Of a DNA stretch of 11,034 nt, positions 1 to 11,034 are shown one piece after another (the stretch's first letter is position 1; each line of letters starts with the position of its first letter). A program made the translations under genes and the position numbers. The notes beneath the pieces were generated by a model. That model was not told where the DNA came from. It did no database searches and saw only the letters and a list, made by a program, of their open reading frames with translations. The stretch is from Ignavibacteriota bacterium (lineage in GTDB: Bacteria > Bacteroidota > Ignavibacteria > UBA10030 > UBA6906), in contig JACQVJ010000118.1 in the NCBI GenBank assembly GCA_016209805.1, positions 1-11,034 of the forward strand. The letters are read 5' to 3'.

Positions 1-1
1 C

Positions 2-127
2 GGCGCCGGTCTCCGATACGACATCTACGGATTTGACTTCAGTTATATCCAGGCTGCGGAGAACCATCCACTCTCTGACACAATCCGCTTCTCGCTCCTG
101 ATCGGTTGGGGGGGTGGAACCGACTAA
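2..127 (+). CDS. C-terminal end of a PorV/PorQ-like outer-membrane barrel protein (partial)
   Basis: An open frame enters from the left edge and stops with TAA at 125-127, giving 41 residues. The readable end has alternating barrel-strand character: GLRYDIYGFDFSYI, a short loop, then NHPLSDTIRFSLLIGW and a tail GGGTD. The order 'G.RY...FDFSY....NPL..T.RFSL' matches the last two strands of PorV (LptO)/PorQ-type proteins, the outer-membrane shuttles of type IX secretion, as I know the family. A T9SS-type cargo gene follows 45 bases downstream, which fits. The final aromatic is Trp, followed by five polar residues, whereas PorV proteins usually end near Phe. A run of seven G at 108-114 encodes this tail; adding or removing one G does not restore a better ending, so I do not call a frameshift. 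Only the end is visible, so another barrel family remains possible. Confidence 0.6.
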   Translation, partial: GAGLRYDIYGFDFSYIQAAENHPLSDTIRFSLLIGWGGGTD

Positions 128-172
128 CGCCTGAACAAACCTCCATTCGACGACCGCAGATTCAGAAGTGAA

Positions 173-3100
173 ATGACGCTGGCAACATATTCTCTCCTCC
201 TGCTCACGTTTACAGCAACCTCGATCGCACAGCAATTGAGTCATCCCCTGAGCCCGGCAACGTCGGGACGGGATGACGTTTTTTTGCATCCTCGTCCGCT
301 TATGACAGTGCCGGATACTATTGATATCCTTGCTGTGATGGTTCAGTTTCTGCCGGATGACGACCTTCGAACGACGGGAAATGGTCGGTTTGACCTTTCC
401 ACTCCAGCAGCGCCGTTCCTCGAGGCACCGCCGCGGAACAGGCAATACTTCCAGGATCATATGGAGTTTGCAGCAAACTACTATAGAAAGACGTCGAAGA
501 GAAAGGTGATACTCAGGTCTAACGTGCTCGACTCAGTGTTCGCATTGTCGAGTGTCATGGCAGCATACAGTCCGCCGAGGAACGGTCCGAACACCGCCGT
601 GGGGAATCTCGCACGCGATACCTGGCAGAAAGTCGACTCCTCCGGTCTTGTCTCCGATTTCTCGATGTATGAGTGCTTCATTGTGTTTCATGCCGGAGTG
701 GGAAGAGATGTGGATCTCGTCAGTACCATCGGTTTCGATCCGACGCCGCTTGATATTCCGTCGCTCTACCTTGGCATCAACGCGTTCAAGGAATTCTATG
801 GCTCGGGTTACCAGGGAATTCCTGTCCATGGAGGCTCATTCCATATCACCAGTTCCATCATTATTCCCGAAACCGAAACGCGTCTCATCCCGTCCACTCC
901 CCAGGATGTCCTTCTCAGGCTCGGCATCAATGGTTTGCTTTGCGCTTCGATTGGGAACTTCCTCGGTCTCCCCGATCTTTTCGACACGAATACCGGTCGC
1001 TCAGGCATCGGCAGGTTTGGTCTGATGGATGGACAGGGGATATTTAGTTTTGCAGGGGCTTTTCCTCCTGAACCGTCTGCATGGGAGAAGTACTGGCTCG
1101 GATGGCTCGAACCAATTGTTGTGCAAGCGGGTGAACACGATGTTGCTCTGCCGGCTGTCGGTCTGGATACGGCAAATGTCATCTACCGCGTGCCGATCAG
1201 TAATCGAGAATATTTCCTCGTCGAGAACAGGAATAGAGACCCGATGGGTAATGGGCAGAGAGTTTCGATGCGATATAATGGAGTCCCTCAGACACTGACA
1301 GTTGCGCGAGATACAGCGGGGTTCAATGCCTTCGATGTCTCTTCGATTGTTGGCGTTGTAACGGACGTGGAAGACCTTGATTGGAGTTTGCCTGGAGGCG
1401 TTTCAACTGATGGGACGTTCTTCGATGGAGGAACGCTGATCTGGCATATCGATGAGGCAGTGATTGCTTCCGGGCTTGCCGCAAATGGTGTCAACGCCAA
1501 CCCGCAACGGCGAGGAGTTGATGTTGAGGAAGCCGACGGGTCCCAGGACATCGGTCATGAATTTGGTTTTCTCGCGCCCGGCTCGGGGAGCGAAGAGGGG
1601 ACGCCTCTTGATTTCTGGTTTGAAGGGAACAGCTCACCTGTATACAAAAGGGAATTCTCCCCCACAACTCATCCGAACAGCTTGAGCAATCTCCTTGCGA
1701 ATTCCCATATCACGATCCGCGATTTCAGTGTCCGAAGCCCGAGGATGACGGCGAAAGTGATTCGCGGCGATGCCCGCATCTCTCCTCTGCCGGGATTTCC
1801 GAAAGCTCTCGGCGAGGAGCTCTCTTCGCATTCGTTGACCATTGGAAACCTCGACGATGAGTCAGGCCTGGAGATACTCATCTCAACCGGAGGACAGTCG
1901 GTTCCGGTGATAAGAGGGAGCGGCCCTCAAAGTTCTCCGACCTCACCGAAACTGTTTGCCTGGAAACCCGACGGCATCGTGTTAGCCCCGTTCCAAACAA
2001 ACGGAACTCTTGCATCGTCTGGAGCAGTCGGTTCATTATTCGTCGGTCCTCCAGCGCTGAAGGATCTGGATGGGACGGGCAGACAAGAAATCGTCATCGG
2101 GCAGGCACATCGTGTGCCGGCAGTTCCGATCGGCGGTGGCGATCCATCGTTCGGAACTCTGCTCGGGTATTCGGTGATGGATTCCAATGGCGACAGTCTT
2201 GCTGACAACTATTTCTCGCATAGTATCGGTCGTACAATCACAACGCCTCCGGTGATTGGCGACTCGATCATTGCGATTGGTGCATCGGGCGGCAGAGTGT
2301 ACTTCCTTCGGTTCGATGGGACGCTCATCGACAGCCTCATATGGGTTGATGATACAACCGCTTCGGTTGTGGGGATCAGTCTGTATTCCGGCAGGGACGT
2401 GTTCATCGTAACCGGAAGTAATGGAAGCGTCTCAATCGTTGCACGAGGTACGAATGGTGCCGTGGCGACGCCACTTCCCGGCGCGAATTTTGGAAAGCGG
2501 ATTGTTGGTCCAGCAGTGTCGGGCACATTCCCTCCGAATGATTCGCCAAGGATCGCATTCACAACGGAAGACGGCTACCTCTATCTGGTGGATGCACAGC
2601 TACAGCCTGTATCAGGATTTCCCATTCACATCGGGGAGCGTATTGTCCAACCGCCCGCGCTGGCGGACGTGGACGGGGACGGAAGGCGTGACGTTGTTGT
2701 TTTCGGTGAACGAAAAGTCTTTGCCTATAATCATGCAGGTTCGGCTCTAGACTTCTTTCCTATAACAATTCCTTCATCTCAGCCGATCGCCTCGCATCCG
2801 ATCGTCTCGGATGTGGACGGAGATGGAAACGTGGAAGTAGTTGCCGTGTCTCGCGATGGCCTTGTCGCCGCGTACGACAAGAGCGGTCGGATGGCTCCGG
2901 GATTTCCGCTGCAGGCCGGGAGTGGAAATCAATCGGTTGCAGTCTTCACGTACGATTTCGGAGCGTTGAGTGCAGAAGGGATTGCTCTTGCGGTTGCATC
3001 CTCCAGTGACGGGACGACTTCGGCATGGAGGACGGGGACCATCGGAGGATCTCTCCATAACAATCCGTGGCCACAGTATCAGAAGGATGCGCTTCACTCA

Positions 3101-3427
3101 GGACTTGCTCTGGAGGTCCTCACCGGTTCTCCGTTAAGCGCCGAGTTTTTCCCGAAGGACCGCGCATACAACTGGCCAAATCCTGTGTATGATGGAAAGA
3201 CATTCATCCGATATTTCGTCAAGGACGATGCGACAGTGAACGTGAAGGTGTTTGATCTGGCCGGTGATCTTGTTACAGAGTTTGCAGGGCCGGGAATCGG
3301 CGGCGTCGATAACGAAGTGCAGTGGGACGTGGGAGATGTCCAGAGCGGCATTTACTTTGCGCGGATCGAAGCGGCTGGTGCTGCAGGCAGCGGAGTGGCC
3401 GTGGTAAAAGTGGCGATAGTGAAGTGA
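173..3427 (+). CDS. M6-like pseudopeptidase with FG-GAP-type repeats and T9SS sorting domain, secreted
   Basis: 1084 residues. A signal peptide spans about 1-19 (hydrophobic core LLLLTFTATSIA, cut before QQ), oddly without a basic residue at its N-terminus. ATG 173 is the only plausible start: the frame upstream runs back to the TAA at 125 without ATG, GTG or TTG. Residues about 48-330 read as an M6 (immune inhibitor A-like) domain: 'DILAVMVQF', 'VFHAGVGRDVDL' near 171, 'GLPDLFDTNTGRSGIGRFG' from 265, then 'EPSAWEKYWLGWLEP'. The zinc motif expected as HExxHxxGLPD reads CASIGNFLGLPD at 257-268, so both His and the Glu are lost and the domain is probably inactive. From about 545 there are FG-GAP/VCBS-type repeats (near 557, 626, 828 'DVDGDGRRDV', 876 'DVDGDGNVEV'), likely a beta-propeller. 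Residues about 1000-1084 ('NWPNP', 'VFDLAGDLV', 'SGIYFARIE', ending KVAIVK) match a type A T9SS sorting domain. Probably secreted or surface-attached; role unknown, perhaps binding. Confidence 0.85.
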   Translation: MTLATYSLLLLTFTATSIAQQLSHPLSPATSGRDDVFLHPRPLMTVPDTIDILAVMVQFLPDDDLRTTGNGRFDLSTPAAPFLEAPPRNRQYFQDHMEFAANYYRKTSKRKVILRSNVLDSVFALSSVMAAYSPPRNGPNTAVGNLARDTWQKVDSSGLVSDFSMYECFIVFHAGVGRDVDLVSTIGFDPTPLDIPSLYLGINAFKEFYGSGYQGIPVHGGSFHITSSIIIPETETRLIPSTPQDVLLRLGINGLLCASIGNFLGLPDLFDTNTGRSGIGRFGLMDGQGIFSFAGAFPPEPSAWEKYWLGWLEPIVVQAGEHDVALPAVGLDTANVIYRVPISNREYFLVENRNRDPMGNGQRVSMRYNGVPQTLTVARDTAGFNAFDVSSIVGVVTDVEDLDWSLPGGVSTDGTFFDGGTLIWHIDEAVIASGLAANGVNANPQRRGVDVEEADGSQDIGHEFGFLAPGSGSEEGTPLDFWFEGNSSPVYKREFSPTTHPNSLSNLLANSHITIRDFSVRSPRMTAKVIRGDARISPLPGFPKALGEELSSHSLTIGNLDDESGLEILISTGGQSVPVIRGSGPQSSPTSPKLFAWKPDGIVLAPFQTNGTLASSGAVGSLFVGPPALKDLDGTGRQEIVIGQAHRVPAVPIGGGDPSFGTLLGYSVMDSNGDSLADNYFSHSIGRTITTPPVIGDSIIAIGASGGRVYFLRFDGTLIDSLIWVDDTTASVVGISLYSGRDVFIVTGSNGSVSIVARGTNGAVATPLPGANFGKRIVGPAVSGTFPPNDSPRIAFTTEDGYLYLVDAQLQPVSGFPIHIGERIVQPPALADVDGDGRRDVVVFGERKVFAYNHAGSALDFFPITIPSSQPIASHPIVSDVDGDGNVEVVAVSRDGLVAAYDKSGRMAPGFPLQAGSGNQSVAVFTYDFGALSAEGIALAVASSSDGTTSAWRTGTIGGSLHNNPWPQYQKDALHSGLALEVLTGSPLSAEFFPKDRAYNWPNPVYDGKTFIRYFVKDDATVNVKVFDLAGDLVTEFAGPGIGGVDNEVQWDVGDVQSGIYFARIEAAGAAGSGVAVVKVAIVK
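941..985 (+). other. Degenerate M6 zinc-binding motif (CASIGNFLGLPDLFD)
   Basis: These 15 codons encode residues 257-271. Active M6 peptidases carry HExxHxxGxPD here. In this gene the HExxH positions read C-A-S-I-G, while the following G-L-P-D-L-F-D is fully conserved. The frame is open and the flanking family signature is intact, so this is substitution of the metal ligands and catalytic base, not a frameshift. Confidence 0.85.
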
Positions 3428-3432
3428 AAATT

Positions 3433-3440
3433 GGGAAGAG
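3433..3440 (+). promoter_or_regulatory. Ribosome binding site supporting the ATG at 3445
   Basis: GGGAAGAG lies four bases before ATG 3445. It favours this start over the GTG at 3424, which has no purine-rich run at a useful distance, although that GTG overlaps the upstream TGA in the GTGA arrangement typical of coupled genes. Confidence 0.5.
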
Positions 3441-3444
3441 AGTT

Positions 3445-6400
3445 ATGCGGCGGTTGTTTCTTAGAGGTGTTGTGTTCTCAACGGTGATGTTCCTTCCGTG
3501 TGCCCTTCATGCTCAGGAAGAATTCTACCATCCCGAGCTTGAATGGAACACGATAGAGACCGGGCATTTTCTCATCCACTATCATGAAGGAGCGGAGCGA
3601 ACGGGTCGGGCTGTCGCAAAGATCGCTGAGGAGATTTACGAGCCGGTCACTTCTCTCTACAACCACGTTCCCGACCGGAAGGTCAGCTTCATCATCAAGG
3701 ATTACGATGATATATCAAACGGCGCGGCATACTTCTACGACAACAAGATCGAGATTTACGCACCGAGCATGGACTTCGACCTGCGAGGCACGCACAACTG
3801 GCTTCGCAACGTGGTCACACACGAGTTCACGCATATCGTTCAGATCCAGACATCGATGAAATTCGGAAGGACGCTTCCGGCGTTCTATCTGCAATGGCTC
3901 GGCTATGAATCCGAGCGCCGCACCGACGTGCTGTACGGCTTTCCAAATATTGTCGCATCGTATCCGCTCTCCGGGTTTGTTGTCCCGGTGTGGTTTGCCG
4001 AGGGGGTTGCACAGTATAACCGGGAGGAACTTCGTTACGATTTCTGGGATTCGCATCGGGATATGATTCTGCGCTCGTATGTTCTCGATGGGAAGATGCT
4101 GACGTGGGAGCAAATGGGTGTGTTCGGCAAGACGAGTCTTGGCAATGAGTCGTCGTACAACGCGGGTTTCGCATTCGTGCACTACATCGCACAGCGATAC
4201 GGCGAGGAAAAGCTCGTGGAGATCTCACGCAACCTTTCGACACTCATCGAAACGACGATCGACGGAGCAATTGAACGAGCAGTAGGAAAGAGCGGTCGGG
4301 ATGTGTACAACGAATGGCGCGACGAGCTTGCGAGAAGCTATGCGGCACGGGTTGCACCGGTTCGCACGAATATCAGGGAGGGCGTGCCCGTTGTCTTCAC
4401 AGATGAAGACGAGCCATCCTCATTGAACGGACGTTATCCCGAAAAAAAAGCCGCAACTCGATTCCGCGATGCACTCCGTCAACAGCCGGAGTCGATGCCG
4501 GGATGTTGCGCCCGCGTTGTCGAGACGGGATTCGCCAATCTCTACGCGAAGTATTCTCCTGACGGAAAGAAATTTGCCTTTGTCAGCACGATGGGAGGAG
4601 ACTATTTCGGGTCTTCGGGATTGTACGTTGCGGATCTGAAGACACGGAGAGCGAAAGAAATCCGCTCAGGTGTTGGCGGCGATATGAGCTGGGCGCCCGA
4701 CGGCAACAAGTTATACTATTCGCGAATTTCGCGGAGCAATCCGTTTTGGTCGCTGGTGCATGACATTTATGTGTACGACCTCAAGGAAGAAAAAGAAACA
4801 CGCCTGACGCACGGCAGACGGGCAACAAGTCCGGCGGTCTCACCCGATGGCTCGACGATTGCGTTCGTCGTGAACAATGACGGCACGAGTAACGTTGCGA
4901 CAATGAAGATCGATGGTTCCGATTTCAAGCTCGTCACTTCCTATGCGTCGGGTGAGCAGGCTTACAACCCCGAATGGGGTCCTGCCGGAGATCGGATCGT
5001 GTTCGACTATTCGATCAAAGATGGAAGGGACATTGCGTGGGTTCGACCCGACGCGACCGATTTACAAATCCTTGTGTCTGGTGCGGACGATTCTCGTTCG
5101 GCAGTTTTCATTCACGATGGTTCCCGATTGGTCTTTTCGTCAGACCGGACAGGGATCTTCAATCTCTACACGTACACGATTGGAACCGGAGCTATTGAGC
5201 AACTGACGAACGTTCTTGGCGGCGCTTTTCTCCCGACAGTGAATGCGCAAGGCGACGTCATTTATTCCGCGTACACGTCAGGCGGATACAAGTTCTACTC
5301 TATGGAGGCCCCTTCCGTGCTTGCGAAGGGGGATTACCACTATGCGGACATCAGCGGTGCTTCGGTCGTTGCCGGCAGCGGATCGCTGGCAATGAGAACG
5401 GTCGAGGCTGTAGGACCACAATATGACTGGAGTTCACTCCGGTCGTACGACGATACGAAGCTGCCGCCATTCGACTCACGCTCGTACCGGAGTATTTTTA
5501 CGAGTCTCACGATTGTCCCGTTCCTTCGTGTCGACAATTACAATCCGAAGAACAAGGCTCTCGACGTCATCAAACCGGGGGTGTACCTCTTTTCCAACGA
5601 CATCCTTGAGCACACGGGTTTCTTTGCGGGTGCCGCGCTGAACAGGAAGTTGGAGCGCGACCTCTTTTTGCAGTTCAACTACAGAGGGAAGATCCCGCTC
5701 TTCTATCACCTCGGTCTGGATCCTGTGGCGTCAATCGAGCTGTACAACGTTACCCGCAAGACGGACAACGTCATTTCGCTTCCAGCGTCCACCATTCCCG
5801 TCGATCTCACGTACAACCTGCTTGAGTTTGATTTCGTGCTGAACCAGCGGATATTCTCCTCATCCACGCATGTGGAGTTCCGCTTCATGCACAGTCGGTA
5901 CACTTCGATCATTGAAAACTTCATCAATCCCGAAACAAACCCGCCGTCGCTCGTTCCCGGCTCCAGCGATCTCTACTTGATTGCCAACGATCTTTCGTTG
6001 ACATTGACACATGAGGCCATCGCACGGTCAAGCACCATGGAGATCAATCCCGTAGGAAGGAAGATCTGGCTCCGCATCGGCAGAGAGCTGAACAAGTTCA
6101 ACGGCGATGGAGAGTATGAGGTGACGAGCACCGGGTTGCAACCGGTGTACAAGAGAATCAATTTCACTCGGGTGGAGATGAGATGGCGGGAACACATTCC
6201 ATTCTTCTTCAAGAACCACACGCTCACGGCAACCGTCCGCGGTGGTTCGATCCTCGAGCGAACCGTGGATGACTTCTTTGATTTTTACGCCGGCGGACTC
6301 ATCGGCATGAAAGGATATCCCTTCTATTCGATTGGCGGAAATGAGCTTGCCGTTGCGGGACTTGCGTACAGGTTTCCGCTCATCGATAACATCGATATCC

Positions 6401-6681
6401 GCATCCTGCAGTTCTATTTCGACAAGCTGTACATGTCGGTCTACGGCGACATCGGTAATGCCTGGAGCGGCAAGACTCCGATTCTCCGAAAGTTCAAGAC
6501 AGACGCGGGAGTGGAGCTTCGCTTGGAATCATTCTCATGGTATGCGTATCCGACGAGGATTTTCTTCAATGCATCGTACGGGTTTGACGAGTTTCAGAGA
6601 ATCGTAAGAGGGAGTCCCGTGACGTATGGGAAGGAGTGGCGGTTCTATTTCGGAGTTCTTTTCGGGTTTGAATTTGATTGA
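3445..6681 (+). CDS. Outer-membrane fusion: gluzincin-type metallopeptidase, TolB-like propeller, beta-barrel
   Basis: 1078 residues from ATG 3445, which has an SD-like GGGAAGAG at 3433-3440 and lies 17 bases after the previous stop. A GTG at 3424, overlapping that stop, is an alternative start adding seven residues. Signal peptide about 1-23 (MRRLFL, hydrophobic core, ALHA cut before Q). Residues about 40-310 form a peptidase domain with HEFTH at 126-130 (H126, E127, H130) and a likely third ligand E186 in WFAEGVAQY, the peptidase-MA-like/gluzincin pattern. From about 365 to 610 there are TolB/PD40-type blades: 'YAKYSPDGKKFAFVST', 'MSWAPDGNKLYYSR', 'PAVSPDGSTIAFV', 'NPEWGPAGDRIVF', 'HDGSRLVFSSDRTGIFNLY'. 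From about 690 alternating strands form a barrel ending YFGVLFGFEFD; MKGYPFYSIGGNELA (955 on) resembles the RGY region of Omp85 barrels. Likely an outer-membrane-anchored protease; substrate and the side the domains face are unknown. A run of eight A (4442-4449) lies in the linker. Confidence 0.85.
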   Translation: MRRLFLRGVVFSTVMFLPCALHAQEEFYHPELEWNTIETGHFLIHYHEGAERTGRAVAKIAEEIYEPVTSLYNHVPDRKVSFIIKDYDDISNGAAYFYDNKIEIYAPSMDFDLRGTHNWLRNVVTHEFTHIVQIQTSMKFGRTLPAFYLQWLGYESERRTDVLYGFPNIVASYPLSGFVVPVWFAEGVAQYNREELRYDFWDSHRDMILRSYVLDGKMLTWEQMGVFGKTSLGNESSYNAGFAFVHYIAQRYGEEKLVEISRNLSTLIETTIDGAIERAVGKSGRDVYNEWRDELARSYAARVAPVRTNIREGVPVVFTDEDEPSSLNGRYPEKKAATRFRDALRQQPESMPGCCARVVETGFANLYAKYSPDGKKFAFVSTMGGDYFGSSGLYVADLKTRRAKEIRSGVGGDMSWAPDGNKLYYSRISRSNPFWSLVHDIYVYDLKEEKETRLTHGRRATSPAVSPDGSTIAFVVNNDGTSNVATMKIDGSDFKLVTSYASGEQAYNPEWGPAGDRIVFDYSIKDGRDIAWVRPDATDLQILVSGADDSRSAVFIHDGSRLVFSSDRTGIFNLYTYTIGTGAIEQLTNVLGGAFLPTVNAQGDVIYSAYTSGGYKFYSMEAPSVLAKGDYHYADISGASVVAGSGSLAMRTVEAVGPQYDWSSLRSYDDTKLPPFDSRSYRSIFTSLTIVPFLRVDNYNPKNKALDVIKPGVYLFSNDILEHTGFFAGAALNRKLERDLFLQFNYRGKIPLFYHLGLDPVASIELYNVTRKTDNVISLPASTIPVDLTYNLLEFDFVLNQRIFSSSTHVEFRFMHSRYTSIIENFINPETNPPSLVPGSSDLYLIANDLSLTLTHEAIARSSTMEINPVGRKIWLRIGRELNKFNGDGEYEVTSTGLQPVYKRINFTRVEMRWREHIPFFFKNHTLTATVRGGSILERTVDDFFDFYAGGLIGMKGYPFYSIGGNELAVAGLAYRFPLIDNIDIRILQFYFDKLYMSVYGDIGNAWSGKTPILRKFKTDAGVELRLESFSWYAYPTRIFFNASYGFDEFQRIVRGSPVTYGKEWRFYFGVLFGFEFD

Positions 6682-6697
6682 CCTTCGCGGAGATGAT

Positions 6698-7600
6698 ATG
6701 GTAAAGGGAGTGATTGTCGCGTGTGTATTGATTGCATTCGGTGCGGAGCGGAGTCTTGCCGGTGACGGTGCAGAGGACGCGCGGAAGATTGAGCTGACCG
6801 GCAACCTGCGTGTCGACTTCTTCGGTCAGACGAGCTTTGCAGCTGGGACGTTGGTTCAGACCGGGGAAACATTGGAGCGTCCGTACAAATCGCCGTGGCT
6901 TGCAGCCGGACTGTCTGCCGCGCTGCCGGGCGTAGGCGAGTTTTACGCGGAGAGTTACTGGAAGGCGGCGGCATTTCTTGCTATTGAAGTCGCGGCGTGG
7001 GGTCTTGCGTACTCATTTGACAAGCGGGGCGACCGCCAAACGGATTCGTTTCAGGATTTTGCGAACTTGCACTGGAGCGCGTACCGGTATGCCGAGTGGA
7101 CGCTGGCCAACGCGCATCTCATCAAACCGGGGTTCGATCCGAGTCCGTACCAGGACGTTCTTGGCGGAAATGGAAGGGTGAACTGGGAGCGGCTCAACCA
7201 GCTCGAAAGGGCGCTCGGAGGTTGGTATTCACACAGTCTCCCGCCATATGGGGAGCAACAGTATTATGAGCTTATCGGAAAGTACCAGCAGTATTATCAA
7301 GGTTGGGATGATGCACTCGTCGGACTGACGACATACGAACAGATCAGCTCCTATCTTCACAACAACCCGAACTCGAGGTTCCAATACTACTCGCGGGAGC
7401 GAGGACGGGCTAATGACTTCTACAACACTGCGAGCACGTACGTGACTGTTGCGATCATCAATCACATCCTGAGTGCCATCGATGCTGCATGGAGCGCAGG
7501 TTCGTACAACAGCTTTCACGCGGAGGTGGGCATTCAGCATATTCCGGCCGGAGATCATGTTGCAAGTGTCCCCGTGGCAAGGCTGTCGTTTTCGTTCTGA
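6698..7600 (+). CDS. Exported DUF5683-like protein
   Basis: 300 residues. ATG 6698 is chosen because GGAG sits five bases upstream (6689-6692) and a signal peptide begins there (MVKGVIVACVLIAFG, cut about residue 21 after SLA); the frame upstream of it overlaps the previous gene and does not look coding. Residues 66-112 carry the recognisable part: 'SPWLAAGLSAALPGVGEFY', 'YWKAAAFLAIEVAAWGLAY', 'DKRG', the pattern of DUF5683-like proteins common in Bacteroidota and Chlorobiota, with two probable membrane-embedded hydrophobic segments. The middle (about 115-245) is rich in Tyr and Trp (for example QQYYELIGKYQQYYQGW). Near 250-266 'YVTVAIINHILSAIDAAW' is a third hydrophobic segment also typical of this group. 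The protein ends LSFSF, a barrel-like terminal Phe. Function is not known. It is the last gene of the surface-protein unit, 16 bases after its neighbour and 22 bases before a terminator hairpin. Confidence 0.7.
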   Translation: MVKGVIVACVLIAFGAERSLAGDGAEDARKIELTGNLRVDFFGQTSFAAGTLVQTGETLERPYKSPWLAAGLSAALPGVGEFYAESYWKAAAFLAIEVAAWGLAYSFDKRGDRQTDSFQDFANLHWSAYRYAEWTLANAHLIKPGFDPSPYQDVLGGNGRVNWERLNQLERALGGWYSHSLPPYGEQQYYELIGKYQQYYQGWDDALVGLTTYEQISSYLHNNPNSRFQYYSRERGRANDFYNTASTYVTVAIINHILSAIDAAWSAGSYNSFHAEVGIQHIPAGDHVASVPVARLSFSF

Positions 7601-7622
7601 CCTCAAAGGGAGAAACTGAGGG

Positions 7623-7654
7623 AGAGGCGTGGCTCGCAAGGTCACGCCTTTTTT
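7623..7654 (+). terminator. Rho-independent terminator after the surface-protein operon
   Basis: AGGCGTG (7625-7631) pairs with CACGCCT (7643-7649), followed by five further T residues. Weaker pairs (G-T, C-G) extend the stem into the loop. Its place 22 bases after the stop at 7600 and before the next gene's leader fits termination of the left block. Confidence 0.85.
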
Positions 7655-7660
7655 GTTCGG

Positions 7661-7689
7661 TTGATTTTGGAGATGGGTTTGGTTATTGT
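7661..7689 (+). promoter_or_regulatory. Possible sigma70-type promoter for the membrane protein gene
   Basis: TTGATT (7661-7666) and TATTGT (7684-7689) are 17 bases apart, each matching four of six consensus bases. It lies just after the terminator and about 75 bases before the ATG at 7764. No Bacteroidetes-type TAnnTTTG box was found at a better position. Weak evidence; the rest of the 7655-7763 gap shows nothing else I can name. Confidence 0.3.
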
Positions 7690-7763
7690 TGGCTGCAGGA
7701 ACGAGTGCATGTTAATCATATGTTGGACCATCACTGGCGTAAAGTCCACAGGGAGTTGAAGGC

Positions 7764-8378
7764 ATGGATTCGAAATCAATATGGTTTGAGGTTACAATTG
7801 CTGGATTAGTGCACTTCTTGGCCTTAGTCTTTTTCGTCCTCGCGTGTTTTCAGATCGGCAGCCTCCCAACTGTGGCAAACGTTGAGCACTACCTTCCTTA
7901 CGTATCGGCTCTCGTAATTGGCTTCTCGTATGTTATCGGTCTGTCAGCACACTATGTTGTTCCGATCGTTGGTGAGAAACTACTCCCCGATTCGTGGCGG
8001 AAGTGGTTACGACATCAACACGAGACTCCTCCTTCAGCAGATGTAGCATCCTTGACCGTTAAGGCTCTCTTGTACGGGAACGAGGTTCTATTTCAATTGC
8101 GACGAAGGATCTATAACACTCTGGTTCTTTTTAGATTGCTTACATCAGGATTCTTCTGCCTGGGGATCTCTGCAAGTTTGTGGATGTATCGAACTGAAAC
8201 TGGTGTGTTGTGGTGGTTTCCGGCTCCTACCGGGTTCTTGCTGGGCATATTGTTCGCGTGGCTGTACAGTCTCCAGTATCCAAAATACGCCTCGATTGAG
8301 AACGCGACGGTCCAGGAAATTGGTCGTCGAAGTGGCAGCCTAACTTCTCTAAAAAGGAGGAAGTCCCATCCGCCGTAG
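7764..8378 (+). CDS. Hypothetical four-helix membrane protein
   Basis: 204 residues; I do not recognise the family. ATG 7764 follows GGGAG at 7751-7755, eight bases upstream. Hydrophobic segments lie at about 8-29, 44-66, 121-141 and 150-170, giving two helical hairpins separated by a polar stretch (about 70-118, with EKLLPDSWRKWLRHQHETPP and QLRRR). Basic residues around 79-84 and 112-116 suggest by the positive-inside rule that the loop between helices 2 and 3 is cytoplasmic, so both ends would be cytoplasmic too. The C-terminal tail (about 185-204, GRRSGSLTSLKRRKSHPP) is basic and its last codons lie in a palindromic repeat, so the natural end of the gene may have been altered. It stands alone between a terminator and a convergent gene pair, so the neighbourhood gives little clue to its role. 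Confidence 0.65.
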   Translation: MDSKSIWFEVTIAGLVHFLALVFFVLACFQIGSLPTVANVEHYLPYVSALVIGFSYVIGLSAHYVVPIVGEKLLPDSWRKWLRHQHETPPSADVASLTVKALLYGNEVLFQLRRRIYNTLVLFRLLTSGFFCLGISASLWMYRTETGVLWWFPAPTGFLLGILFAWLYSLQYPKYASIENATVQEIGRRSGSLTSLKRRKSHPP

Positions 8379-8445
8379 GGACGAGGTCTCGTCCTGCAAG
8401 GCGGGACGGACAAGAGGCGATAGAGATTCCCGTGGTGAATCGGGA
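8363..8445. repeat. Cluster of nested palindromes (REP/MITE-like)
   Basis: Four inverted repeats are packed here: GTCCC (8363-8367) with GGGAC (8378-8382); GGACGAG (8379-8385) with CTCGTCC (8388-8394); GTCCTGC (8391-8397) with GCGGGAC (8401-8407, one G-T pair); and TCCCG (8428-8432) with CGGGA (8441-8445). Several compete for the same bases. The unit covers the stop of the membrane protein gene (8376-8378) and nearly all of the gap to DUF2442. There is no T tract, so it is not a standard terminator, though it could stop transcripts from both converging genes. The GTAGGGACGAGGTCTCGTCC style resembles short interspersed palindromic repeats seen in many genomes; only one copy is in the window. 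Confidence 0.5.
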
Positions 8446-8458
8446 TTAGCTCCAATCG

Positions 8459-8707
8459 TCATGCAGTTGCACGAATGCATGAGTGAAGGAACTCTGGCGA
8501 GAAGTCTGCCCCGTTCTCCCAAACAATCGTATGAAGTTCGGGGTGGACTTTGAATTGTCGAAAGCGGTCCTGGTCTTTGAGAGGCTCGAAAACGGGTCCC
8601 CATAGTTCGTCTTTGAGATCGACTTCACCCTCTAAATCATCACTGAACCGCAACCAGACAACATACTGGTCGACATAACGTGCTTCGATAACTCTTGGAA
8701 TCATCAT
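8459..8707 (-). CDS. DUF2442 domain protein
   Basis: 82 residues covering a whole DUF2442 domain: 'VVWLRFSDDLEGEVDL' (16-31), 'GPVFEPLKDQDRFRQF' (37-52), then 'TIVWENGADFSPEFL' (60-74). The last eight residues (HSCIRATA) are unlike the usual ending. Two adjacent ATGs (8707 and 8704 on the minus strand) could start it; GGAG about nine bases upstream of the first, inside the end of the upstream gene, supports the pair. Its start lies four bases after the stop of the DUF4160 gene, so the two are almost surely co-translated. DUF2442 proteins very often travel with DUF4160 and are listed as possible toxin-antitoxin or regulatory partners; the biochemical role is not established as far as I know. 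Confidence 0.85.
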   Translation of the reverse strand: MMIPRVIEARYVDQYVVWLRFSDDLEGEVDLKDELWGPVFEPLKDQDRFRQFKVHPELHTIVWENGADFSPEFLHSCIRATA

Positions 8708-8711
8708 GGGA

Positions 8712-8969
8712 TTACTCCAGTGGCGAGATTCTCTTCAAAGGTTGTCGCAGCTTGGCAAGCTCCCAATTCTCCAGAAGCTCAGACTTGTGGAGGTCGAGCC
8801 ACTCCATCACATGAGCCAAAGCTCGTTTGGGGAATTGCCCGGAAACGACTCCGGTTTCGACAGCGACAGTGATTTCGTATTCTCCATACTTTGCGTGGAA
8901 ATGGGGTGGTGAATGATCACGATAGAACATGGCGATGACAATTCCGAGAAACCTGCTAATCTCTAGCAT
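8712..8969 (-). CDS. DUF4160 domain protein
   Basis: 85 residues from the ATG at 8969 (minus strand), which places 'MLEISRFLGIVIAMFY' at the N-terminus as in DUF4160 proteins. The core motif 'DHSPPHFHAKYGEYE' (18-32) is intact, followed by 'VETGVVSGQFPKRAL' and 'VMEWLDLHKSELLENWE' (54-70). The open frame continues upstream to an ATG at 9086, but those 39 residues are unlike the family, so the shorter start is preferred even though no clear Shine-Dalgarno precedes it. It is first in a two-gene unit with DUF2442, four bases apart. The pair is commonly proposed as a small toxin-antitoxin-like module by gene association; I cannot say from sequence which partner would be toxic. It is divergent from the beta-lactamase gene, with 140 bases between the two starts. 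Confidence 0.85.
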   Translation of the reverse strand: MLEISRFLGIVIAMFYRDHSPPHFHAKYGEYEITVAVETGVVSGQFPKRALAHVMEWLDLHKSELLENWELAKLRQPLKRISPLE

Positions 8970-9024
8970 GGTGAATTGTACGGGAATTCCCTCACTTGCG
9001 CAACAACCTAACCTCTTCATGAAG

Positions 9025-9035
9025 GGACAATGTCC
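9025..9035. promoter_or_regulatory. Palindrome in the divergent gap (operator candidate)
   Basis: GGACA-A-TGTCC is a perfect inverted repeat with a one-base centre, lying between the divergent starts of DUF4160 (8969) and the beta-lactamase (9110). Its position suits an operator shared by both genes, but 5-base arms can arise by chance. It is not the BlaI/MecI pattern (TACAnnTGTA), and no blaI or blaR-like gene is in the window. Confidence 0.2.
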
Positions 9036-9109
9036 ATTCTGCACTACGAACAAGAATAGGTAATCAAGAGGATGCCCGACCTTCATTCCCCACTATCAGG
9101 ATTGCTGAT

Positions 9110-9901
9110 ATGAACTTCCCCTCGCTTTTGATGCTATTACTGTCGACCAATGGAGGTCACGATTCCGTTAACCTTCTCGATAACTTTCAAGGTCATGACG
9201 GAACCATCGTTGTATATGATCAACGGAGAGATTACTTCACGATTGTCAATGAGAGTCGGGCGAACAGACGCTTCTCGCCTTTCTCTACATTCAAGATTCC
9301 CAACTCGGTCATTGCCCTGGAAACAGGGGTTGTCGGAGAGATAGATGAAGTGGTTCCGTGGGACACCACAAGATATCCTCGTGAGGAATGGTGGCCGGCG
9401 CAATGGATCGGCAAGCACACTCTGCGCAGTGCAATCAAGTTCTCAGTCGTTCCGATCTATCGTACCATCGCCAGCCGTGTCGGTCCTGACCGGATGAGGC
9501 AATACATCGATGACTTTGAGTACGGAAACAGGGACATCTCTTCAGGCATCGACAACTTCTGGCTCAATGGGAGTCTGAGGATCTCTGCCATGGAGCAGAT
9601 CGAGTTTTTGAGGGAGTTCTATAATTACTGGCTGGCAGTGTCACCGACTTCGATTGATGAAGTCAAGAAGATCCTGATTCAAGAAAAGACAGAGAACTAT
9701 GTGCTCAGCGCCAAGACCGGAGGCGGCGACAAAAGCGAGCAGGGAGGGAAGGCGTTCGGCTGGTATGTTGGATATGTCGAGCGAGATGGCAACGTCTTCT
9801 ACTTTGCGCTCAATATTGAAGCAGAGAGTTTCAGTGAGATCATGAAGCTCAGGGTTGATGTTGCGAGGAGTATCTTGAAAGAGCTGAAGATAATAGATTG
9901 A
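9110..9901 (+). CDS. Class D (OXA-type) beta-lactamase
   Basis: 263 residues, a normal length for class D. Every hallmark motif is present in order: S59-T-F-K62 (catalytic Ser and the Lys that is carbamylated in the family) within 'FSPFSTFKIPNS'; S112-V-V (SxV); Y138-G-N (YGN); W151 in 'FWLNGSLRISAMEQIEFL' (the Trp that shields the carbamylated Lys); K202-T-G; and 'AFGWYVGYVERDGNVFYFA'. It should be an active periplasmic serine beta-lactamase; spectrum cannot be predicted. The N-terminus is short: the active Ser is at 59 versus about 67-70 in common OXA enzymes, and the leader MNFPSLLMLLLS lacks basic residues, so the signal peptide is weak. No alternative ATG, GTG or TTG exists in frame back to a stop at 9020-9022, and only a weak AGGA (9098-9101) precedes the start. 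No integron integrase or IS is next to it, so it could be a resident gene. An unrelated penicillin-binding role is unlikely given YGN plus the Trp. Confidence 0.9.
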   Translation: MNFPSLLMLLLSTNGGHDSVNLLDNFQGHDGTIVVYDQRRDYFTIVNESRANRRFSPFSTFKIPNSVIALETGVVGEIDEVVPWDTTRYPREEWWPAQWIGKHTLRSAIKFSVVPIYRTIASRVGPDRMRQYIDDFEYGNRDISSGIDNFWLNGSLRISAMEQIEFLREFYNYWLAVSPTSIDEVKKILIQEKTENYVLSAKTGGGDKSEQGGKAFGWYVGYVERDGNVFYFALNIEAESFSEIMKLRVDVARSILKELKIID

Positions 9902-9962
9902 TCCGTGCAACTCACGAATGTTGAGTGATATCTACAACCGGACCTAACGTGGCCGTTACACT

Positions 9963-9968
9963 GGGAGG
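9963..9968 (+). promoter_or_regulatory. Strong Shine-Dalgarno for the hydrolase gene
   Basis: GGGAGG lies five bases before ATG 9974, the best ribosome binding site in the window, and decides the start. The 72-base gap after the beta-lactamase also holds a small hairpin TAACG-TGGC-CGTTA (9945-9958) but no clear promoter, so the two genes may share a transcript. Confidence 0.6.
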
Positions 9969-9973
9969 AAGAG

Positions 9974-10771
9974 ATGAAGTCATCTGCCATTCTTTTGTTG
10001 ATCACCTGTTACACAGCTTCAATGCCTGCTCAAGACTTTGCTTTGAAGCAACTCAACGATTCACCACGCCACCACGAGTGGGTTGCGATACCATCCGGGA
10101 AGCGGAGTCTCCACTGCTTCGTTGCTTATCCGGAGAAAAAGGAGAAATCTCTGGTTGCTATTATCATCCATGAGAACCGCGGGTTGACCGATTGGGTACG
10201 GAGCTTTGCAGACCAACTGGCGGGAATCGGTTACGTTGCCATCGCTCCAGATCTCTTGTCCGGCTTCGATGAGAAACACAGCAGGACAAGTGATTTCAAC
10301 AGCTCAGACGATGCGCGGAACGCCCTTTATCAACTTCCCCCCGATCAAGTTACCAACGACCTGCTTGCCGTGCAGAAATATGCTTCTGATGTTCCATCCT
10401 CGAATGGAAAGACGGTTGTCATAGGATTTTGCTGGGGTGGTGCGCAGTCGTTTCGCCTCGCGACGAATGCCGATGACCTATCGGCTGCGCTGGTCTTCTA
10501 CGGTTCGTCTCCCGACGCTGACAGGATTCCGCGAATCACCGCTCCTGTCTACGGCTTCTACGCTGAGAACGACGAGCGGATCAACGCGGGCATTCCCGAA
10601 ACCAGCGCGCTCATGAAGAAGTATGGCAAAACGTACGACTTTGTGACCTACAAAGGTGCCGGCCATGCATTCATGAGGAGTGGCGATGATCCTGCGGGTT
10701 CCAAGGAAAACAGGAAAGCCCGGAACGACTCGTGGGAGCGACTAAAAAAGATTCTGTCGCAGATTGAGTAG
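9974..10771 (+). CDS. Exported dienelactone hydrolase family protein
   Basis: 265 residues with an alpha/beta-hydrolase fold. A signal peptide spans about 1-19 (MKSSAILLLITCYTASMPA, cut before QD), so the enzyme acts in the periplasm or outside. Dienelactone-hydrolase signatures: 'IIIHENRGL' (63-71, with the conserved Glu at 67), nucleophile C153 in GFCWGG, acid D200 in 'FYAENDERIN', and H231 in 'GAGHAFMR'. The Cys-Asp-His triad is complete. The family hydrolyses lactones and esters; the classic substrate, dienelactone from chloroaromatic breakdown, is unlikely here because no such pathway gene is nearby and the protein is exported. A carboxylesterase on an unknown substrate is the safer reading. 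It follows the beta-lactamase by 72 bases on the same strand and converges on the LptF/G-like gene, with 26 bases between their stops. Confidence 0.85.
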   Translation: MKSSAILLLITCYTASMPAQDFALKQLNDSPRHHEWVAIPSGKRSLHCFVAYPEKKEKSLVAIIIHENRGLTDWVRSFADQLAGIGYVAIAPDLLSGFDEKHSRTSDFNSSDDARNALYQLPPDQVTNDLLAVQKYASDVPSSNGKTVVIGFCWGGAQSFRLATNADDLSAALVFYGSSPDADRIPRITAPVYGFYAENDERINAGIPETSALMKKYGKTYDFVTYKGAGHAFMRSGDDPAGSKENRKARNDSWERLKKILSQIE

Positions 10772-10777
10772 GAATTC

Positions 10778-10794
10778 GAGGCAGCGGCTTCCTC
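10778..10794. terminator. Weak hairpin between convergent genes
   Basis: GAGG (10778-10781) pairs with CCTC (10791-10794), with a C-T mismatch and then AG/CT closing a three-base loop. TTTCTATTTC follows on the plus strand. Situated between the stops of the hydrolase (10771) and the LptF/G-like gene (10800, minus). Short stem, so low certainty. Confidence 0.3.
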
Positions 10795-10797
10795 TTT

Positions 10798-11034
10798 CTA
10801 TTTCTGTACCCGTAAGATTACGACGACAGCCGCACAAAAGAAAATGATATTTGCCATCCACGCTGTGAGAAGAGGGTTGATGTCGCCGTTGTATCCAAAC
10901 ACCTGACTCACTTTCATGAAGATTAGATAGATAAAGCAAATCAATAGGCTGATGCCAAGTTGTACCCCCACGCCGCCGCGCCGCTTGACGGAAGAGAAAG
11001 GGACTCCGAACAACACCACGATCATGCTTGCAAA
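10798..11034 (-). CDS. LptF/LptG-family LPS-export permease, C-terminal part (partial)
   Basis: The frame runs off the right edge, leaving the last 78 residues and a TAG stop. The visible part reads FASMIVVLFGVPFSS, then 'VKRRGGVGVQLGISLLIC', 'FMKVSQVFGYNGDINPLL' and 'AWMANIIFFCAAVVVI', which is the C-terminal membrane region of YjgP/YjgQ (LptF/LptG) permeases: the 'GVPF.S...RRGG' turn, a helix, a small extracytoplasmic loop with 'G..G.....L.AW.', and a final helix ending in LRVQK. In the family these inner-membrane proteins work with the ATPase LptB to extract lipopolysaccharide and pass it to LptC. LptF and LptG cannot be told apart from this end. Its 5' part and neighbours lie outside the window. 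Confidence 0.88.
   Translation of the reverse strand, partial: FASMIVVLFGVPFSSVKRRGGVGVQLGISLLICFIYLIFMKVSQVFGYNGDINPLLTAWMANIIFFCAAVVVILRVQK

Follow-up and report, generated by a model that had tools for sequence, protein, structure and literature searches.

Why should a secreted protein with the fold of an M6 metalloprotease and a dismantled zinc site be encoded directly behind a gene of the type IX secretion system (T9SS)? This question is raised by an 11,034-nucleotide stretch of DNA from an Ignavibacteriota bacterium (positions 1 to 11,034 of the forward strand of contig JACQVJ010000118.1, assembly GCA_016209805.1; hereafter, the window), in which the gene for such a protein, here called M6i, follows the end of porV. 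Comparisons of homologous sequences indicate that M6i is an ancient pseudoprotease under strong purifying selection, and that the dismantling of its zinc site predates the diversification of the family. M6i is probably an overlooked accessory part of the T9SS rather than a stray secreted adhesin, because it is encoded behind core T9SS genes, together with a partner gene designated c1, in many distantly related Bacteroidota. To the reading that M6i serves, without catalysis, as an accessory component in a surface module linked to the T9SS, we give a probability of about one half. The parts of M6i on which this reading draws are as follows.

173 to 3427, forward strand: M6i, a T9SS-dependent inactivated M6-like protein of 1084 residues (NF052323, 831.5 bits, cut-off 600)
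308 to 1792, forward strand: M6-fold domain, residues about 46-540
944 to 958, forward strand: residues 258-262 (ASIGN), at the position of HExxH
974 to 976, forward strand: D268, the third metzincin ligand position, kept in all 120 listed proteins, M6i included, and in all 94 distinct domains
1025 to 1027, forward strand: M285, the Met-turn position, kept in 93 of 94 distinct domains
1793 to 3067, forward strand: beta-propeller, residues about 541-965
3158 to 3424, forward strand: T9SS type A C-terminal sorting domain (CTD), residues about 996-1084 (TIGR04183, 26.3 bits, cut-off 23)

The reading frame runs without interruption and opens with a hydrophobic leader, and a structure model of the whole protein (pLDDT 84.6, pTM 0.83) gives the sorting domain seven strands. 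An earlier interpretation of the window made from the letters alone (the sequence-only reading) had described the signal peptide, the GLPDLFD stretch, the family frame and the sorting domain as intact; the leader and the sorting domain are in place, the CTD scoring above the TIGR04183 cut-off and slightly below that of Pfam PF18962 (25 bits, cut-off 27). The propeller region carries FG-GAP repeats (PF13517). The relation to M6 was established by fold search: the domain model TIGR03296 stays below its cut-off (47.6 of 110.8 bits), and a sequence search of solved structures with M6i or its alignment returned propeller lectins and no M6 entry. Because a fold search with the whole chain was likewise swamped by propellers, the M6 domain was folded separately, and the M6 fold is present. 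Elsewhere in the genome from which the window comes (G000), TIGR03296 gave one further weak match (C351, E 6.5e-4, 19.2 bits).

The inactivated M6-like pseudoenzyme itself is not new, since NCBI had already named the family: NF052323 is the NCBIfam model "T9SS-dependent M6-like inactivated metalloprotease" (T9SSA_dep_M6i), a name found in public records such as those of Rhodohalobacter halophilus, and M6i belongs to it by score, inactivated motif and CTD. The models numbered next to it, NF052324 and NF052325, are named "putative PorU2" and "PorV2", so that a connection with the T9SS may already be known to those who curated the models. In the part of the open-licence PubMed Central literature that we surveyed, we found no paper on an inactivated M6 protein in a T9SS locus.

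The dismantled site lies within residues 255-272 (LLCASIGNFLGLPDLFDT), and its position was set by the metzincin spacing HExxHxxGxxD, anchored on GLPD. Compared with the M6 peptidases (thuringilysins, immune inhibitor A), M6i lacks the two histidine ligands and the catalytic glutamate, and retains G265 and D268 alone of this motif. The third zinc ligand of thuringilysins is an aspartate (PMC12237041). The sequence-only reading was thus right that HExxH has been replaced and one residue off in placing the substitute (CASIG at 257-261 rather than ASIGN at 258-262), and its statement that all zinc ligands are lost was too strong because the third, D268, is kept.

Conservation of the altered site was followed in a close set of 120 listed proteins, M6i included, of 2441 above the database-search threshold, and in a divergent set of 113 rows from loci across the phylum, which represent 94 distinct domains. 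HExxH does not occur at the site in any of the 120 proteins or of the 113 rows. The word appears away from the site in three of the 120 (residues 20-30, just past the leader) and in one of the 113 (residue 139, locus L024), in each case distant from the dead site in sequence. All 120 proteins have serine at 259, alanine or serine at 258 and asparagine or serine at 262. The 94 distinct domains are more varied, with serine (69), asparagine (15), threonine (5), glutamine (3) or methionine (2) at residue 259, and serine (72), asparagine (21) or glycine (1) at residue 262. When the share of the commonest residue is averaged in an alignment of 54 rows, residues 250-311 reach 0.91, as against 0.74 for the M6 domain, 0.51 for the propeller and 0.77 for the CTD.

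Eleven pairs of relatives were compared, and in every one residues 240-300 have a lower pN/pS (0.015-0.123) than the whole M6 domain (0.065-0.193). For nine of the pairs dN/dS could be calculated over the M6 domain and ranges from 0.036 to 0.101, the window's own gene being in none of the 11 pairs and dS being saturated in several. Evolution is faster in the propeller than in the M6 domain. The universal loss of HExxH in these samples, together with the low pN/pS, amounts to purifying selection on the dead site and not to decay. Sequencing error or recent decay, which HExxH in close homologues would have suggested, is rejected on the counts of zero in 120 and zero in 113 and on the low dN/dS, and no other intact HExxH was found in the site. 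At this level the proposal of the sequence-only reading is supported: a secreted scaffold of the T9SS type, under selection and non-catalytic, with an M6 fold and a propeller. M6i is a clear case of a zinc protease that became a non-catalytic scaffold long ago, a change conserved since. An animal membrane protein offers a parallel, for which no homology is claimed: there an inactive metzincin-fold domain serves as a binding scaffold, with a propeller ligand as partner.

The next step towards an answer is the company that M6i keeps. In the window, 45 bases separate porV from M6i, 17 separate M6i from c1, and 16 separate c1 from a DUF5683-like gene that closes the conserved block.

2 to 127, forward strand: 3' end of porV, the C-terminal 41 residues and stop of a gene cut by the contig start (85% identity to residues 338-378 of PorV in locus L083)
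3445 to 6681, forward strand: c1, an outer-membrane protein with a HEFTH zincin, a TolB-like propeller and an Omp85-like barrel (PD40, 61.3 bits; Omp85, 27.1 bits, cut-off 24; Peptidase_MA_2, 28.7 bits, cut-off 32.4)
6698 to 7600, forward strand: DUF5683-like protein, encoded at the end of the conserved block (PF18935, 22.9 bits, below the cut-off of 26.7)

The matches that fall short in the window are above cut-off for the homologues in L083, both for c1 (Peptidase_MA_2, 33.2 bits against 32.4) and for the DUF5683-like protein (PF18935, 30.8 bits against 26.7), and L083 also has a PorV (NF033710, 261.6 bits, cut-off 250) and a PorU (NF033707, 918 bits, cut-off 420). We compared 53 M6i loci (49 distinct), namely the window and 52 fetched loci, several of which stop at contig edges. 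Since greedy calling of open reading frames (ORFs) overlooked porV under a longer ORF on the opposite strand, the counts were remade with tblastn, which detected PorV in 51 of the 53 loci and PorU and c1 in 45 each; the DUF5683-like gene forms one cluster in 41. M6i and c1 overlap by four bases or one in several loci, and in loci without a linked c1, such as L105, L106, L108 and L117, M6i is still next to porV. Conversely, c1 was found in none of 17 loci that have PorU and lack M6i, in 15 of which porU and porV stand side by side. In L083, past the conserved block (14117-19001), two opposite-strand genes resemble LptF/LptG permeases on a reading of their sequences and are followed by sprA, so that much of the T9SS translocon lies near the M6i locus in that family.

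The distribution of M6i was surveyed in 198 genomes of the phylum and 14 control genomes, the counts being of related genomes and not of independent events. The family occurs as a single copy in 78 of the 198 (74 above the NF052323 cut-off) and in none of the controls; 58 of the 60 nearest relatives have it, and 17 family codes in the sample share the locus. PorU was found in 135 genomes, 72 of which also have M6i, and in 68 of these 72 porU lies within 1.7 kb of M6i. The gap is 1.2-1.7 kb in 67 of the 68, which fits porV; in the other (G005), porU adjoins M6i on the opposite strand.

The association with c1 is tighter still. A c1 profile built from four sequences, all from M6i loci, and applied at a threshold of E 1e-30 matched 82 genomes: all 78 with M6i, at E 1e-115 or better, and four weakly (G147, G160, G164 and G195, E 1e-31 to 1e-33), and at least two of these four match the propeller only. 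In 69 of the 78 genomes c1 lies within 4 kb of M6i, and in the other nine it is kept elsewhere (in G104 at a contig end). HExxH is retained in 43 of 45 members of the c1 cluster, the remaining two being truncated ORFs of a single locus, and no NCBIfam equivalog model scores above cut-off for c1.

Six genomes have M6i with no detectable PorU, absence being defined as no match at E 1e-60 for PorU and E 1e-25 for PorZ. One is the window's own genome, which is 71% complete; the others are five members of family f26 (G061, G081, G108, G119 and G171), in which PorV, M6i, c1 and the DUF5683-like gene stand side by side and SprA is present. PorZ was likewise undetected in these five, and in G159, which has PorU. 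Matches to the type A CTD number 8, 7, 32, 26 and 18 in the five PorU-less f26 genomes, as against 60, 66 and 97 in three f26 genomes with PorU. Five genomes of one family (L103, L104, L152, L153 and L154) combine SprA and PorV with some CTD proteins of type A, PorU and PorZ being undetected: a natural sortase-less T9SS. Genomes that have PorV, SprA, M6i and c1 and lack detectable PorU and PorZ would make the role of the translocon and PorV without a sortase directly testable.

How might M6i reach and hold its place? PorA, PorU and PorZ are secreted without loss of the CTD, unlike cargo, which is processed (PMC11285876), and PorV collects type A CTDs (PMC12618676). By this route M6i would be exported by SprA/Sov, collected by PorV and held on the surface by an unprocessed CTD, as PorU and PorZ are, and its conserved, remodelled dead cleft and its propeller, the candidate surfaces, would bind, rather than cut, a peptide of c1 or of T9SS clients. 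The extreme C-terminus is consistent with such retention. A tail of the form K[ILVM]A[IVL] within the last eight residues occurs in 9 of 14 M6i proteins, 8 of 10 PorZ and 4 of 11 PorU, and in none of 28 strong cargo CTDs or 20 weaker CTD proteins of G000; with glycine allowed, 76 of 95 M6i proteins have it, truncated ORFs counted. For the cargo set, 30 regions had been fetched and two (L181 and L197) filtered out, and C77 is in both cargo sets. One of the 20 control CTDs (L200, G000:C213) shows K-V-A-I eight residues from the C-terminus and is encoded directly before a PorV-like gene, perhaps as a PorU2/PorV2-type pair.

We hypothesize that M6i, delivered by PorV and partnered with c1, belongs to a T9SS-linked module found in part of the phylum and independent of the sortase branch. 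A more tentative proposal, which we rate somewhat below even odds, is that M6i and c1 together make up a T9SS-linked outer-membrane module not described before, each being one half of it, which is delivered by PorV and can outlast the loss of PorU and PorZ, and in which a pseudoprotease and a barrel-anchored active protease would handle T9SS clients or outer-membrane proteins in lineages other than the model species studied. Most knowledge of the T9SS comes from Porphyromonas and Flavobacterium; if the proposal is true, M6i beside porV and the unnamed zincin c1 would add parts to the system in much of the phylum (78 of the 198 sampled genomes). M6i shares with PorZ a secreted beta-propeller, a T9SS CTD and a similar tail, whereas PorZ has no M6 domain and is undetected in PorU-less genomes where M6i persists. 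We considered M6i as a stand-in for PorZ and rejected the idea, because the two occur together in 72 of the 78 M6i genomes, G000 included.

Several observations weigh against a role for M6i as a T9SS accessory component. It is missing from 63 of the 135 genomes with PorU and so cannot be a universal part of the system, and in four genomes, all of family f33, porU lies on another contig. Its co-occurrence with c1 rests on related genomes rather than on 78 independent events. If c1 has the usual Omp85 topology, its zincin faces the periplasm whereas M6i lies outside, so that a direct pairing of zincin and pseudoprotease is not obvious; contact would then run through the barrel or take place during export. 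The 28 cargo CTDs are the top TIGR04183 matches and hence a biased sample. Mean CTD identity is 0.232 between M6i and PorU, 0.204 between M6i and PorZ, and 0.223 between M6i and cargo, so that closeness to PorU and PorZ by overall identity is not supported: agreement is confined to the last residues and a longer final loop. Nor does the M6i CTD have the additional beta5-beta6 hairpin that PorU and PorZ are reported to carry. Because the tail resembles those of PorU and PorZ while identity and the missing hairpin do not, we offer it as a suggestion only that the CTD stays uncleaved after secretion.

These same CTD identities, as high to cargo as to PorU, could be expected if M6i were one T9SS cargo among others, secreted for binding or adhesion, with a gene that lies beside porU and porV by chance. 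Dozens of other G000 proteins carry a type A CTD (56 matches), and the FG-GAP repeats and the faster evolution of the propeller would also suit such a protein. The sequence-only reading had leaned this way, with its suggestion of a binding or adhesion protein, for which we found no specific support; conservation of the locus and co-occurrence favour a single-copy component linked to porU, porV and c1 over membership among the many variable surface cargos. Cargo would not readily explain a locus kept across 17 family codes and beside porV in 51 of 53 cases, nor the persistence of M6i in PorU-less genomes with just 7-32 CTD matches when PorU-bearing relatives have 60-97, and M6i, unlike free cargo, is always accompanied by c1. 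We therefore regard this explanation as unlikely, if still one to be reckoned with.

The constancy of c1 invites a different account, in which M6i acts mainly with c1 in outer-membrane biogenesis or quality control and the link to porU and porV reflects co-export and operon history. Co-occurrence is indeed tighter with c1 (78 of 78) than with PorU (72 of 78), both proteins remain in PorU-less genomes, and there is a precedent in the Bacteroidota BAM complex, which has an extracellular canopy (PMC12611786). That M6i bears a T9SS CTD and stays by porV where c1 is unlinked speaks for the T9SS instead, and makes this account improbable in our view. Much less probable again is continued enzymatic activity of M6i, by a changed mechanism or at a different metal site. 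The invariance of D268, the near-invariance of the Met-turn and the serine at 259 in all 120 listed proteins might seem to invite this idea, but residue 259 is serine in just 69 of the 94 distinct domains (otherwise N, T, Q or M), which tells against a catalytic serine, and both histidines and the glutamate are gone in all 94. S259 as a nucleophile was accordingly rejected, 25 of the 94 domains having another residue there.

Further genes of the window lie beyond the conserved block.

8459 to 9086, reverse strand: adjacent DUF2442 and DUF4160 proteins, weakly like the antitoxin DhiA (28.4 of 200 bits) and the toxin DhiT (74.2 of 100 bits)
9110 to 9901, forward strand: class D beta-lactamase-like protein, just below the cut-off of the general model NF012161 (238.7 of 250 bits)
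9974 to 10771, forward strand: dienelactone hydrolase family protein (PF01738)

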